NCBI GenBank assembly: GCA_001604565.1
Contig: LVBV01000003.1
Location: 1-64,000, forward strand
DNA length: 64,000 bases
Reading direction: 5' to 3'
DNA from: Puniceicoccales bacterium Verruco_01
GTDB lineage: Bacteria; Verrucomicrobiota; Verrucomicrobiia; Opitutales; Oceanipulchritudinaceae
Numbering within the stretch: the stretch's first letter is position 1; the number at the start of each line of letters is the position of its first letter. The position numbers and the translations under genes are program-made. The notes beneath the pieces were generated by a model. It was not told the DNA's origin. It worked only from the letters and a program-made list of their open reading frames with translations, and did no database searches. This document shows, one piece after another, positions 13,546 to 19,500 of the stretch.

Positions 13546-14247
13546 CTACTTTGCCGCGTCCTTTGCGGGAAGGGCCGGGGCGATGCGCACCACCTCGGGA
13601 TCGTCGCCGCTGATGGAGACGAAAATCTCGCCGTGGGTGTCCTCGCCCACATGGCGCGCCGCCGCCACCGCGAGGCTCGGCAGGGCTTTGCGCAGGTCCG
13701 AGTTCGCCTCGCGTGTCGTGACGATGACCGACCAGAGCTGCGGCAGCTCGCCCGAGGCGTCCGCCTTCGGTGCAAAAGCCGTCAGGGAAAGACGCATGTC
13801 GTAATACGTCTCGGTGGTGGTGGTCTGGTAAAAGTCGGGACTCGGGTGCCAGTAGCTCGTGCGGACAAAGACGACGGCGCCCGAGCGCGTGCGCACCGGA
13901 ACGCGTCCACTCGCGTAGAAGAACGGATCGTAGAAGGAATCCGTCCGCGTGACGGAGACGCTGCGCGGCTCGCTCACCGAGGTGTCCAGCGCGATGACGA
14001 TTCCGGCGGAGGAAGCGTCGGGGCTCTCGCTATAGCCCTTTGCCTCCAGAGCCTTCGCGACGATGCGCGAGGCTTCCCTGAAGCGCAGGTCGCCCGCGGA
14101 AAGATCCGGATTGGCCGGAACGATGTGAAAGGCCGCCGTGACCGGATGTCCCGAGGAAATGGCGTCCACCTTCACGCGGCGCACCGTGGCGCAGCCGGCC
14201 AGGAGCAGTGCGAGAAGGAAAAACGAGAATTGGCGTAGCATTTTCAT
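13546..14247 (-). CDS. secreted lipoprotein of unknown function (DUF4136-like)
   Basis: The ORF track runs the frame to 15297, but the real start is the ATG at 14247. It opens a lipoprotein signal (MKMLRQFSFFLLALLLAGC) with lipobox LAGC, cleaving before Cys19 of a 233-residue precursor. The body has ASRIVAKALEAKGYSES and SAGIVIALDTSVSEPRSV, reminiscent of DUF4136 lipoproteins, and a Tyr-rich segment in the middle. It is likely membrane-anchored in the periplasm. It is divergent from the flagellin-like gene; the 174-base gap holds that gene's sigma-28 promoter. Confidence 0.8.
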   Translation of the reverse strand: MKMLRQFSFFLLALLLAGCATVRRVKVDAISSGHPVTAAFHIVPANPDLSAGDLRFREASRIVAKALEAKGYSESPDASSAGIVIALDTSVSEPRSVSVTRTDSFYDPFFYASGRVPVRTRSGAVVFVRTSYWHPSPDFYQTTTTETYYDMRLSLTAFAPKADASGELPQLWSVIVTTREANSDLRKALPSLAVAAARHVGEDTHGEIFVSISGDDPEVVRIAPALPAKDAAK

Positions 14248-14350
14248 GACCGGCCTTTTGCTGGGATTACCTCTTGGAAACAGACAGAGAATGCCCCTTC
14301 CGGTTCCGGAAGGCGAGCCAATGCGCATCCGGCCCCCGCGACGAAAGGGA

Positions 14351-14377
14351 TGAAGTTTTCCCGACTTCTGCCGACAT
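14351..14377 (+). promoter_or_regulatory. sigma-28 (FliA) type flagellar promoter
   Basis: TGAAGTTT, an 11-base spacer, then GCCGACAT. The enterobacterial sigma-28 consensus is TAAAGTTT-N11-GCCGATAA, so the match is 7 of 8 in the -35, 6 of 8 in the -10, with exact spacing. It precedes the flagellin-like ORF by 45 bases, leaving a short leader with the GGAGG ribosome-binding site at 14413-14417. Confidence 0.75.
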
Positions 14378-14421
14378 AGGAACCGGGGGACTGTCGTCGG
14401 ATCGCATCCCCGTGGAGGATC

Positions 14422-16056
14422 ATGGCAACCACCAGCAGCACATCGAGCACATCGAAGTCGAGCGACCTCACCGCGCTCCGCTGGAAAACCATCCTCGAAT
14501 ACAACGAGCTGAACGCCTTCGCCATTCCCAAATCGAAGGTCACGGACGACACGCTTACCCAGTACAAGTCTGTCACGACGGACTCCTACAAGCAGAGCAC
14601 GGGTTTGCTGAAGAACATGACCGAAAAATTGGGCACGATTGAGGGCAATCTGAAACAGATGCTCACCTTTGCCCAAAACGGGGCGCAGGCGCGCAGCGAC
14701 AAGAAGGAGGAAACCGCCTTCGCTCAGCTGCGTACCCTTTCCGCCGGTATCGACTCCATCGTCCGCAGCTACACGCTGGAGGATTTGAAACTCTTTTCCG
14801 GACGCTCCGTCAACCTGTCCTACGACAACGGGTCTTTCCAGATGAAGCTGGACAATCTCTCCAGCAGCGGCAAGGACGGGCTGGGACTGGCCAAAACCGG
14901 AGACGGCGCCTTCGTCAAGATCAGTTACGACTACCTGAACACGAAGCGCAACAACAAGACGAGCATCGCGGGACTCGACATCACAAGCGCCTCCACCTGC
15001 AAGGGTGACCCGACGGTCAAACAACTGACTGACGGGAAGTATCAGGTGAAGGTGGAGTACAAGGGGCCCAAGTCCACGATCTATATCCAGAATCTGGACG
15101 GCACGACGATCGACAAGGCGGAAAACGTGGATCTGACGGGCACCGGCCAGATGGATGTGAAACTCGGCTGCGGCGTGCAGCTTTCGCTGGAGAAGACCTA
15201 CTTCAAGACGGCTCTGGGCGGGGACAAGTACGACTACGAGACCTTCGGTTCCGTCTCCCTGTACGCGAACCTCTCCTACGAGAAAAACGTCCAGCATTTC
15301 CTCGACGACGGCTCGAAGAAAACGCTCGTCACCGAGAACAGCGTGAGCGTGGCGAGCGGACGCAATCTGAGCGGAACGACCGGCAACATGAAGGTCTCCG
15401 CAGAGGTGGCGCCCGTGTACGACGGACGCACCCAGATGGCCACGGGGCCGTACAGTCTGAAGATCAAATACGCGGGCGTGGGCGGCAAAAGCTCGTCGCT
15501 GTGGCTCTACGACAACAACGGCAACCTCGTCTCCACGGTGTGCAGTGTGAATCTCTCCGGAACCAAGCCCGTTTCCGTGGACCTTGGAACCGGCGTGTCC
15601 ATCACCCTCGACCAGCAGAATTTCACCTCCGGGGCGCGCACCTACAACACCACCCTCAATTACACCGCCGCCGACGAGCCCTACAAGGTCTTCGACTTCA
15701 AGGCTTACACGGAAAAGATCCAGGAGGCGCTGGACACGGTGAAAGAGAACTTGAAGACGGTTTCCGACGCTCAGGAGGAACTGGACTCGCGCTACAGCAT
15801 CGTGCAGTCGGCCATCAAGCTGGCCGTCACCGGCGGCGCCACGCAGTCCGCACTCTCGGATGTCCTCGCGGGCGCACTGTCCAAAAAAAACACGGTCTCC
15901 GCCTCCGACCTCTTCGGCAGCGTGAATTCGTCGGTCGATTCCTCCATCACCACGGTTCTTTCCGACAACAGCATCACCGACATTCTGACAAGCAACGTCG
16001 AAGACCTCTCTGACGTGGATTCCTCAATTCTGGCGCTCTATTACAAGAAGAGATGA
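14422..16056 (+). CDS. divergent flagellin-like filament protein
   Basis: 544 residues, Ser/Thr/Asp-rich, no Cys-based anchor and no Sec signal, as expected for a type III exported filament protein. Residues 55-130 (TGLLKNMTEKLGTIEGNLKQ ... QLRTLSAGIDSIVRSY) follow the helical pattern of flagellin D1, and residues 426-466 (KAYTEKIQEALDTVKENLK, then DAQEELDSRYSIVQSAIK) resemble the returning C-terminal D1 helix. The extreme ends lack the canonical flagellin D0 sequences. The centre holds two related beta domains (about 204-261 and 341-401), discussed in findings. A GGAGG site lies 5 bases before the ATG and a sigma-28 promoter is upstream. It could be a second flagellin, a hook-associated protein or another axial component; no other flagellar gene is in the window. 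Confidence 0.72.
   Translation: MATTSSTSSTSKSSDLTALRWKTILEYNELNAFAIPKSKVTDDTLTQYKSVTTDSYKQSTGLLKNMTEKLGTIEGNLKQMLTFAQNGAQARSDKKEETAFAQLRTLSAGIDSIVRSYTLEDLKLFSGRSVNLSYDNGSFQMKLDNLSSSGKDGLGLAKTGDGAFVKISYDYLNTKRNNKTSIAGLDITSASTCKGDPTVKQLTDGKYQVKVEYKGPKSTIYIQNLDGTTIDKAENVDLTGTGQMDVKLGCGVQLSLEKTYFKTALGGDKYDYETFGSVSLYANLSYEKNVQHFLDDGSKKTLVTENSVSVASGRNLSGTTGNMKVSAEVAPVYDGRTQMATGPYSLKIKYAGVGGKSSSLWLYDNNGNLVSTVCSVNLSGTKPVSVDLGTGVSITLDQQNFTSGARTYNTTLNYTAADEPYKVFDFKAYTEKIQEALDTVKENLKTVSDAQEELDSRYSIVQSAIKLAVTGGATQSALSDVLAGALSKKNTVSASDLFGSVNSSVDSSITTVLSDNSITDILTSNVEDLSDVDSSILALYYKKR
15031..15624 (+). repeat. two diverged copies of a beta domain inside the flagellin-like gene
   Basis: Copy one (15031-15204) and copy two (15442-15624) encode aligned sequence: GKYQVKVEYKG with GPYSLKIKYAG, NVDLTGTGQMDVKLGCGVQL with SVNLSGTKPVSVDLGTGVSI, and KTYF with QQNF. 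This points to an intragenic domain duplication in the surface-exposed, variable part of the filament subunit. Confidence 0.75.
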
Positions 16057-16502
16057 TCCCCTCCTTTCCACAGAATGCCGAAAGGCTCTACCGGCTGGAG
16101 GCGCTGAAGGCCATGTCGGCGCGCGAGAGGCTGCTTGTCACCTGCGACCTTGCCTGGCAGGCGGCCAACGAGGGCGACGAAAACCGCCTGCGGGGACTGC
16201 TTCTGCTCCTCAAGATGAGCCTGCGTTTCGAGAAGACGCCGATTCAGGCCCTCGCGGCCCTGCGGACCTTCCGCCACTGCGAGGCGGCGCTGGAGCGCGG
16301 GGATTATCCCGAGATTTCCCGCGTGTTCTTCCTTCTCAAGCGCGGTCTTGCCGAGCCGGATACCACACCCTCTGGCCCGGAGGCCGAGGCCTGCCGCGAA
16401 AAAGTCCTTCGCGAGGGAATGCACCTTCGCTTTGGCCGCAGCAAACCCCACTTCGCGGGCCAGTCCACCGTGCGCGTGCAAAAGACGCCCGTAGCGGAGT
16501 GA
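16053..16502 (+). CDS. small FliS-like candidate filament-protein chaperone
   Basis: 149 residues, mostly helical. Its ATG overlaps the stop codon of the flagellin-like gene (ATGA), implying translational coupling. The core SARERLLVTCDLAWQAANEG, then LRGLLLLLKMSLRFEK, ALRTFRHCEAALERGDY and ISRVFFLLKRGLAEP follows the FliS pattern of helices (LLxxLYDxAI, L-repeat, LxxLYxYxxxxL, final amphipathic helix), but with low identity. FliS-type chaperones bind the flagellin C-terminus before export. Function is inferred mainly from size, helical pattern and coupling. It ends one base from the convergent hrpA stop. Confidence 0.5.
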   Translation: MIPSFPQNAERLYRLEALKAMSARERLLVTCDLAWQAANEGDENRLRGLLLLLKMSLRFEKTPIQALAALRTFRHCEAALERGDYPEISRVFFLLKRGLAEPDTTPSGPEAEACREKVLREGMHLRFGRSKPHFAGQSTVRVQKTPVAE

Positions 16503-16503
16503 T

Positions 16504-19500
16504 TCACTTCCCCTCGTCCACGGCCTCCACGGCCCCGTCCAAACGCTTTTCGGACACCGCGCCGTCCGTGCCTAGATTCTGCGCGAAGAGCGAGACCTTG
16601 AATTCCTCGATCAGCCAGCGCAGCTGCTCGATTTTCTCAAGCTGCGAGGGCGTGTTCTTCTTGCGGACGGAAAACTTGTAAAGCGCTTCGGCGTAGGGGC
16701 GGATGCGCTCGATCTTTTTGGCGTACTTGGCCCGGTCGGTCCGCAGTTGTTCGGCCCGGGCGAGCATGGCCTTCAGATACCGCGGAAAGTGTCGCAGCCG
16801 CTCGTACGAAGTGATGGCAAGGAAGTTCGGCGGCAGGAGCGCGTCCAGTTCCTCCCTCATCCCGGAGTAGGGCGCCTTGCAGAGGAGGATCGCGCGGCGC
16901 TGCGTAAAGAGGTCCTCCATCTGGTCCGTGAAGGATTGCGGCAGACCCCGCATCTTCGCCGCGGCGTTCTGTACCACGTCGTCGAAGGCCGCCTTTTTGA
17001 GCGGCAGGATCTTTTCCGGCGCGGGGCGCAGGAGAAAGCGCACAAGCAGTGACAGACAGGCGTCCGCGAATTTCTCCGCGGGCATGACAGTCGCCACGTC
17101 CGGTCCCACCCTTTTGAGTTCGCGGCGCAGGTCCCTCTCAAACCACGCAAGGTCCCGTCCGAGGGCCATCGTCGCAAGGAGCTGGAAGGCCGGACCCGTC
17201 GCGGCGGCGGCCTCGCCCTTCGTGTGGAAGAGCCGGATCGCGACGCTCGTCGGCGCGATGCAGTTGCGCGGAGGCTTTTCGCAGACTAGGCCCGGGAAGG
17301 CTTCGAGCGGGATTCCCGCCACGTCCGCCAGCACCAGCTCTTCCGGCAGGTCGGCGAAGTTCCACGAGGAAAGGCCCTCCTTTTCGAATTTCTCCCGCGC
17401 CTGACGCCAGACCTTGAGCTCGTCCGTCTCAACGCGCTGGGCGGCCTTGCGCTCCGCGATTCTCGCGGCGTAGGTCTCTTTCAGTTTCTCCCAATCCCTC
17501 TCGGCGGCGATGGGTTTGTTCTCCGAGTCCACCACCTGCACGCGCGGGAGAAGGTGTGCGGGAATCTCGCCGCCCGCAAGGTCCGCGGGCCGCACCCTTT
17601 GGCCGTAGTCCTTCCAGAGAATCTCGCAGAGCTGCTCGGCGAGCGGCGAGGGCGAGGGAGTCAGCTTCGCGAGGATCGCCGGAGTTTTTTCCGCGATGGG
17701 GAAGAGCGCCTTGCGCACGTCCTTGGGGAGAGCCCGCAGGAGCGCCTCGACGCGTTCCTCCACGTAGCCCGGCACGATCCAGTCGAGCATCCCCGGCTGG
17801 AGCGCCTCGAATTTGGCCAGAGGCACCGAGAGGGTTGCCCCGTCGTCCGCCTCGCCGGGCTTGTACGCGTAGGAAAGCGGAATCTTCTCGCCCGCCACCT
17901 CCACCGCGTCCGGAAAGCGCGCGATAGCGGATTCGTCCGCCGGATCGACGAGGTCCTCCTCCTTCATGCGCAGGAGGGAATCGTCCCCTCCCCGCTCTTT
18001 CAGGAAGCGCCGCAAGTCCGGCACGGAACCGATCCCGTCCGGCAGCCTTTCGCGGTAGAAGGCGTAGATGCGGTCGTCGAGACTCCAAAGCTGTCCCCGG
18101 CGCAGCCGCGTCTGCTTTTCCTCCACCACTTCCCGCAGTTCGCGATTCGCCTCCAGGAAGGGCAGGATCTCCTTCACACCCTCCTCCACTAGGCCGCTGC
18201 GGATGAAGATCTCGGTCGCTTCCCGTGGCAAAAGCGGGGCGAGGTTCACGCGCCGGCGACTGAGTTCCAAGCCGTAGAGGAAGCTCTTTTCCGTGCACAC
18301 GGCCCGCTCGCCGCGCTCGTCCCACGTCGGCGCCTCGTGGACGTGTTTGATCAGGTGTGCGCCCAGCTGGAGGATCCACGGCACCTCCACCGCGGCACAG
18401 GTGCGGGCGAAAAAGGCGCTCGTCTCCACCCACTGCGCGGCCATGATCCACGCGGGCGTGCGGTTGCCGGATTCCCCGGAGGGTTTTTTGCCGTATTTCT
18501 GCTTGATCTCGTCCTTTCGCGCCTTCTTGTCGAAGAGGGCGCTCCCTGGGAAGAGCGACGCAGAGCGATTGCGGGTGGCAAGGTAGTGGTTCCCTTCCTC
18601 GCGCCGGGCGACGTTGCCGAGCAGGCCCGAGAGCAGCGCGCGGTGAATCTGCATATATTCGGCGTCCGCCTTCTGTTCCGCAACGGCCTCCGCCTCGCCC
18701 ATCTCCTGCGTTAGTTGCAGGTGGATGTCCATCCACTCGCGCATGCGGATGTAGGAAAGGAAGTGGTCCTTGCAGAAGCGGCGCATCTGCCGCTGCGACA
18801 GCTTTTCCGCCTGCGCGTCGTACGCCTTCCAGATGTTGAGCAGGGCGAGGAAGTCCGAACGCGGGTCGTCGAAAGTTTTGTGCATCGCGTCCGCCGCCTC
18901 GCGCGCGTCCTCGGGCCTTTCGCGCGGGTCCTGAATGGAAAGGCCCGCAGCGATGACGAGGACCTCCTTCAGGCACTTCTCCTTCTCCGCCTCCACGAGC
19001 ATCCGCGCCACGGTGGGATCGACGGGGAGCCTCGCGAGGCGTCGCCCGAGGGCGGTCAGGCTGCGATCCTCGTTCAGTGCGCCAAGTTCCTGCAAAAGCT
19101 CGTACCCGGCGTTGATGGCACGCTGTTGCGGCGGGTCGATGAAGGGGAACGTTTCCACCTCGCCGAGGTTCGAGCCCTTCATGCGGAGGATGACCGCGGC
19201 GAGATTCGCGCGGCGAATCTCCGGCTCGGTGTATTTGGGCCGCGCGAGGTAGTCCGCCTCGCTGTAGAGGCGGATGCAGACGCCCTCCGCCACGCGGCCC
19301 GAGCGGCCCTTGCGCTGGTCCGCACTACTTTGCGAGACGGCCTCCACCGGCAAGCGCTGCGTGCGCGTCTGCGCATTGTAGCGCGACATGCGGGCAAGTC
19401 CGGCGTCCACCACGTAGCGGATGCCCGGCACGGTGATGGAGGTCTCCGCGATGTTCGTCGCCACGATGATCTTGCGCCGCTGGGTCGGTGCGAAGATTTT

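Follow-up and report, generated by a model that had tools for sequence, protein, structure and literature searches.

The 64,000-nucleotide stretch of DNA analysed here (the window) very probably carries a late flagellar operon of the sigma-28 type, which encodes a divergent flagellin-like export substrate and its cognate chaperone. Computation established the site and how well it is conserved, the homologies, the arrangement of the genes and their co-occurrence with flagellar genes. Plus-strand positions 14351-14377 read TGAAGTTT TCCCGACTTCT GCCGACAT. The enteric FliA (sigma-28) promoter consensus is TAAAGTTT-N11-GCCGATAA, and the site matched its two halves at seven of eight and six of eight positions with exact spacing, confirming the 13 of 16 positions claimed for this sigma-28-like site by the initial annotation. 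Its position upstream of the 544-aa gene was likewise correct, although the distance to the ATG at 14422 is 44 bases and not 45. The site and its surroundings comprise the following features.

13546..14247, minus strand: divergent neighbour, probable lipoprotein gene, outside the operon and bounding the intergenic gap
14351..14358, plus strand: -35 element TGAAGTTT, read from the sequence, with TCAAG likewise placed in the orthologs of G001 and G002
14359-14369, plus strand: 11-base spacer TCCCGACTTCT between the -35 and -10 elements
14370..14377, plus strand: -10 element GCCGACAT, read from the sequence, with GCCGATGT in the orthologs of G001 and G002
14414..14419, plus strand: Shine-Dalgarno sequence GGAGGA, read from the sequence, before the ATG at 14422

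The 544-aa gene is divergent from the minus-strand lipoprotein gene, which starts near 14247, so the promoter site is intergenic. The start codon of this neighbour was read from the sequence, and its product had a weak lipobox and a DUF4136 match (E 0.0011) below the cut-off. A search of 14150-16700 for sigma-70-type promoters gave none. While the window site agrees with enteric-type FliA promoters in its spacing and at 13 of 16 positions, the lineage appears to prefer TCAAG as the -35 element and GCCGATGT or GCCGATTT as the -10 element.

The window 544-aa protein alone had no match over a curated Pfam or NCBIfam cut-off. However, the profile of its ten-member family (A2) matched solved PDB flagellins over the ND1 hairpin, with E values of 2.9e-7 and weaker, and the genus's own flagellins with an E of 1.2e-4; the closest PDB matches included chains deposited as "flagellin homolog". 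Flagellin_N was found in five of the ten members, the window protein not among them, and Flagellin_C (PF00700) matched none of the ten. Judged by the family profile, the protein is remotely but significantly related to flagellins and has kept the ND1 hairpin, which bears out its initial description as flagellin-like. The HMMER alignment started at about residue 59 of flagellin, with no recognisable D0 at either end; the earlier remark that its D0 ends are not canonical therefore holds, consistent with the lack of a PF00700 match. The coding features of the predicted operon are listed below.

14422..16056, plus strand: divergent flagellin-like protein of 544 aa, identified by family profile and homologs
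14569..14871, plus strand: ND1-type helical hairpin region, about residues 50-150, from the HMMER alignment to flagellins and model helices 54-88 and 93-115
14971..15666, plus strand: central beta-rich region, units at about residues 184-258 and 342-415, from low-confidence model strands
15673..15831, plus strand: long CD1-like helix towards the C terminus, about residues 418-470, from model helix 426-469
16053..16502, plus strand: predicted FliS-like export chaperone of 149 aa, overlapping at its start with the stop of the first gene

Built from four sequences, the model of the 544-aa protein was poor (pLDDT 52); at this low confidence it showed two paired helices at the N terminus, a middle rich in beta strands and a long helix near the C terminus. 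The C-terminal helix would correspond to CD1 by its position, with no significant match, and is followed by a Ser/Gly-rich tail. The central region held two similar beta units with the pattern L.dG.Y..k..Y.G.kS......dG.......vdLtG......G.G, an apparent internal duplication as judged by eye. In the fold comparison, the model came closest to flagellin F41 and FlgL (1e-4), although the TM-scores were low. An identity as FlgL was rejected by an hhalign probability of 0.3 against the group's FlgL, and matches to CENP-Q and GvpQ were dismissed as coiled-coil noise.

The second gene was absent from the initial annotation. Alone, the 149-aa protein passed no curated Pfam or NCBIfam cut-off, and the Pfam FliS model had no match in this genome or in the same-genus genomes; five of nine small proteins of the family did match it. 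A joint profile of the small downstream genes matched solved FliS chains (1ory) with an E of 2.2e-7. The model of the 149-aa protein was helical, with high confidence in the core, and FliS headed its fold list at a non-significant E of 0.19. The family profile match, the predicted helical fold and the place of the gene directly after a flagellin-like gene recall FliS (PF02561; 1ory, 1orj), the gene arrangement being present in nearly all carriers examined; unlike FliS, the window copy lies below the Pfam cut-off and has a longer C-terminal tail. At two loci near flagellins (L157 in G005:C1 and L030 in G012), a GNAT-type acetyltransferase gene rather than a FliS-like gene follows the family gene, and the G005 locus also has an AMP-binding ligase by Pfam. 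These neighbours possibly serve flagellin modification.

Among 273 genomes from the order, 14 contained homologs of the family. All 14 carriers had canonical flagellins, compared to 81 of the 273 genomes overall (p 2e-8 by genome, 8e-5 by genus), and all 14 had a FliA-type factor. By alignment, this genome (G000) groups with three MAGs of the Puniceicoccales/Opitutales. It itself contained several canonical flagellins, flgK, flgL, flaF and flbT, so that the flagellar genes which the initial annotation had said to look for are present. Contig ends of C25, C30 and C48 cut flagellin genes, which suggests that the assembly broke where flagellin copies are repeated. Around the window gene itself lie housekeeping genes rather than flagellar ones, and a plasmid search found no plasmid relatives. 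In several relatives, the neighbourhoods are flagellar. The order in G068 is flhF-fliA-motA-motB-flg genes-flgN-flgK-flgL-family gene-FliS-like gene, followed by an opposite-strand flagellin, the flhF call resting on an SRP54-type GTPase match. The family gene of G005 has three flagellins beside it, along with flgI, flgH and a flgFG gene, and canonical flagellins adjoin it in G084, G242 and G009. Together with the conservation of the promoter site at orthologs and paralogs (see below), the placing of the gene in flagellar operons of relatives upholds the proposal that it belongs to the late flagellar regulon.

We infer that a FliA (sigma-28) type factor binds at 14351-14377 and transcribes the two-gene operon from there. 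Expression would be late, with both proteins made once the hook is complete and the anti-sigma factor released. The FliS-like chaperone would most likely bind the C-terminal part of the flagellin-like protein, keep it unassembled and deliver it to the flagellar export gate. Once exported, the protein would most likely take a minor and specialised place as a subunit in the filament or at its base, although for its joining the filament as a minor or basal subunit we consider the chances about even. Somewhat less probable is that the promoter is real and the protein, after export through the flagellar channel, is released and acts outside the cell, for example by binding polysaccharide. Subunits pack into the filament core by means of D0, and no D0 was recognisable at either end; this would suit a released protein, as would the beta-rich middle of the model and the "flagellin homolog" chains among the closest PDB matches. 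There is also a precedent in FlaE and FlaF of V. vulnificus, which are exported by the flagellar route, are not in the filament, and bind exopolysaccharide (PMC6692518). However, a dedicated FliS-like partner and the place directly after flgK-flgL in G068 fit a structural subunit equally well, the structure model is too weak to judge D0, and no carbohydrate-binding family was matched. As in Vibrio, where FlaE and FlaF accompany the filament flagellins, the window family is an extra flagellin relative alongside canonical ones; unlike FlaE and FlaF, it is only remotely related to flagellin and has a chaperone-like partner of its own.

The factor that would read the promoter can be considered alongside the other flagellar promoters of the lineage. 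Two FliA/WhiG-type sigma factors above the curated TIGR02479 cut-off were present in this genome, answering the earlier question of whether fliA exists.

L039 9221-10129 (G000:C46): FliA/WhiG-type sigma gene
L038 17896-18690 (G000:C12): flhF-linked FliA gene

In the genus and in G010, canonical flagellin genes carried a related site, TNAAG-N13-KCCGANNT, found at C6:46291 and C48:317 in this genome and at four more places in relatives (G001, G002 and G010). Counted from TNAAG, the spacer was 14 bases at the window site and 13 at the canonical flagellins, mostly one base shorter. A canonical flagellin in this and the same-genus genomes adjoins FlaF/FlbT, and the flagellin class linked to flaF/flbT had a conserved TTGGCAYG-N4-AAGCT upstream, a sigma-54-like site. 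This element sits 105-125 bases before the genes (L037, which is G000:C6 at ~105 kb; L104; L106). From their upstream sequences, the flagellins here appear to be split between sigma-54 and sigma-28 control. RpoN (rpoN) is encoded in this genome as well, and motility control by sigma-54 has been reported in Opitutia (PMC12316311). A further flagellin group (L041, L109 and L113) had an upstream CTCAAG element and no clear GCCGA -10 element; in L041 the CTCAAG is part of an inverted repeat, CTCAAGT-N17-ACTTGAG.

With two such factors above the cut-off, the promoter might be read mainly by the second FliA/WhiG-type factor (C46) and not by the flhF-linked FliA (C12), in which case the operon would be switched separately from the canonical flagellins. 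We regard this as rather unlikely. The C46 factor is 62% identical to an ortholog in G002 whose gene follows ~1.4 kb after the FliS-like gene that accompanies that genome's second family member; the second family member, its FliS-like gene and the FliA-type sigma gene all fall within ~4 kb (G002:C17, L154 4034-8223). The difference in spacer between the window site and the canonical flagellins points the same way. At least two FliA-type factors were found in 7 of the 14 carriers, compared to 2 of 96 other FliA-positive genomes, a count confounded by kinship as most carriers with several factors come from one family. Against a separate switch, half of the carriers have only one FliA-type factor, and the G002 paralog linked to the sigma gene itself has only a weak site. 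The preferred reading remains transcription by a FliA-type factor, whichever of the two it would be.

Less probable still, and in our view improbable, is that the site is a chance resemblance and that the gene is transcribed from another promoter. When the window was scanned with up to three mismatches, 14351-14377 was the sole match, with 0.05 expected from shuffles. The chance of such a match is ~2e-4 for one gene named beforehand and ~1% for any of the ~55 window genes, the latter leaving some room for coincidence. Across the 2.5-Mb genome, the same tolerance gave nine matches compared to eight for a reversed control pattern, and the remaining matches were mostly inside long open frames. 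The pattern match alone was accordingly rejected as proof of a promoter: by itself it proves nothing, and the significance of the site rests on conservation. A tighter pattern, TNAAGNNT-N11-GCCGAT, occurred at only two other places genome-wide and missed the window site because of the C at the sixth base of its -10 element. A matrix trained on six canonical flagellin promoters (from the genus and G010) was run over ~204 kb of this genome's own sequence. The window copy scored 12.6 bits, a moderate rank, whereas the promoters of both sister-species orthologs of the 544-aa gene reached 18.8 bits and so scored as high as sites of the training set. A weight-matrix scan had been proposed by the initial annotation; this one ranks the window site only modestly and the sister copies very high.

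Comparison across relatives argues against coincidence. The same-genus orthologs in G001 and G002 were 53-55% identical to the 544-aa protein, and their genes were preceded by TCAAGATTTCCCGTATTGTGCCGATGT and TCAAGAATAAGATGATATTGCCGATGT. Over the 13 core bases, the window site was identical to each ortholog at 10 positions, and the orthologs to each other at all 13, whereas the ungapped flanks were only 26-36% identical, and 26-27% where the window was compared with the orthologs (Fisher p of 5e-4 and 7e-4 for the window against each ortholog, and 6e-6 between the orthologs). A wider test covered the 130 bases before each of 17 family genes, with the consensus fixed beforehand and a spacer other than 11 counted as half a mismatch. 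The summed mismatches were 79, compared to 113.8 (sd 3.6) in shuffles, the lowest of 300 shuffles being 102, and 119 for the reversed pattern; the sequences are related, so they amount to fewer than 17 independent cases. The second copy in G010 matched the consensus at 14 of 16 positions and the copy in G084 at 15 of 16. No convincing site was found in the 130 bases scanned upstream of five distant members (G005, G012, G009, G068 and G075), which favours coincidence, although in G068 readthrough within the operon may serve to transcribe the gene. Conserved placement amid diverged flanks, the enrichment across the family and the lack of a sigma-70-like site in the gap all speak for a genuine promoter. 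As far as sequence comparison reaches, the match, weak alone, is settled by its relatives. The initial annotation had taken the promoter as independent evidence for the late flagellar regulon; this is supported by the conservation, but not by the match alone, which is not significant genome-wide.

Very improbable is a coiled-coil surface protein or adhesin with no flagellar link, which would resemble flagellin by convergent helix composition. In favour of this reading, the window protein lacks a significant flagellin match of its own, and some relatives have weak lipoprotein and adhesin-type matches. Against it, the family as a whole matches flagellin models and structures significantly, has the FliS-like partner gene, co-occurs with canonical flagellins and has flagellar gene neighbourhoods.

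The family of the 544-aa protein thus resembles bacterial flagellin (FliC/Hag, PF00669 + PF00700) in its ND1-type hairpin, long C-terminal helix, FliS-like partner, flagellar sigma promoter and, in relatives, flgK/flgL or flagellin neighbours. It differs from bacterial flagellin in having no recognisable D0, no Flagellin_C and a Flagellin_N match in only half of its members, as well as in a beta-rich middle and an N-terminal motif of its own, L-T/S-x-x-Q-I-x-E-Y/F-x-x-x-x-A-F, in most members. Among open-licence papers on Verrucomicrobiota or on D0-less flagellins, no description of the family was found. In a large survey of flagellin diversity, only proteins that carry PF00669 together with PF00700 were retained (PMC7018530), so this family would have been missed. 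On a broader and doubtful view, Opitutales-related Verrucomicrobiota might possess an unnamed family of flagellin-like export substrates that lack D0 and have FliS-like chaperones dedicated to them, with a second, specialised FliA switch, forming a distinct extracellular structure or filament segment.

The case shows that comparison across relatives can settle a promoter match that is too weak alone. It also brings to light a small protein family that escapes standard flagellin searches. This family lends itself naturally to testing whether export and use are possible for a flagellin relative that lacks a recognisable D0, and how chaperone and substrate evolve together.
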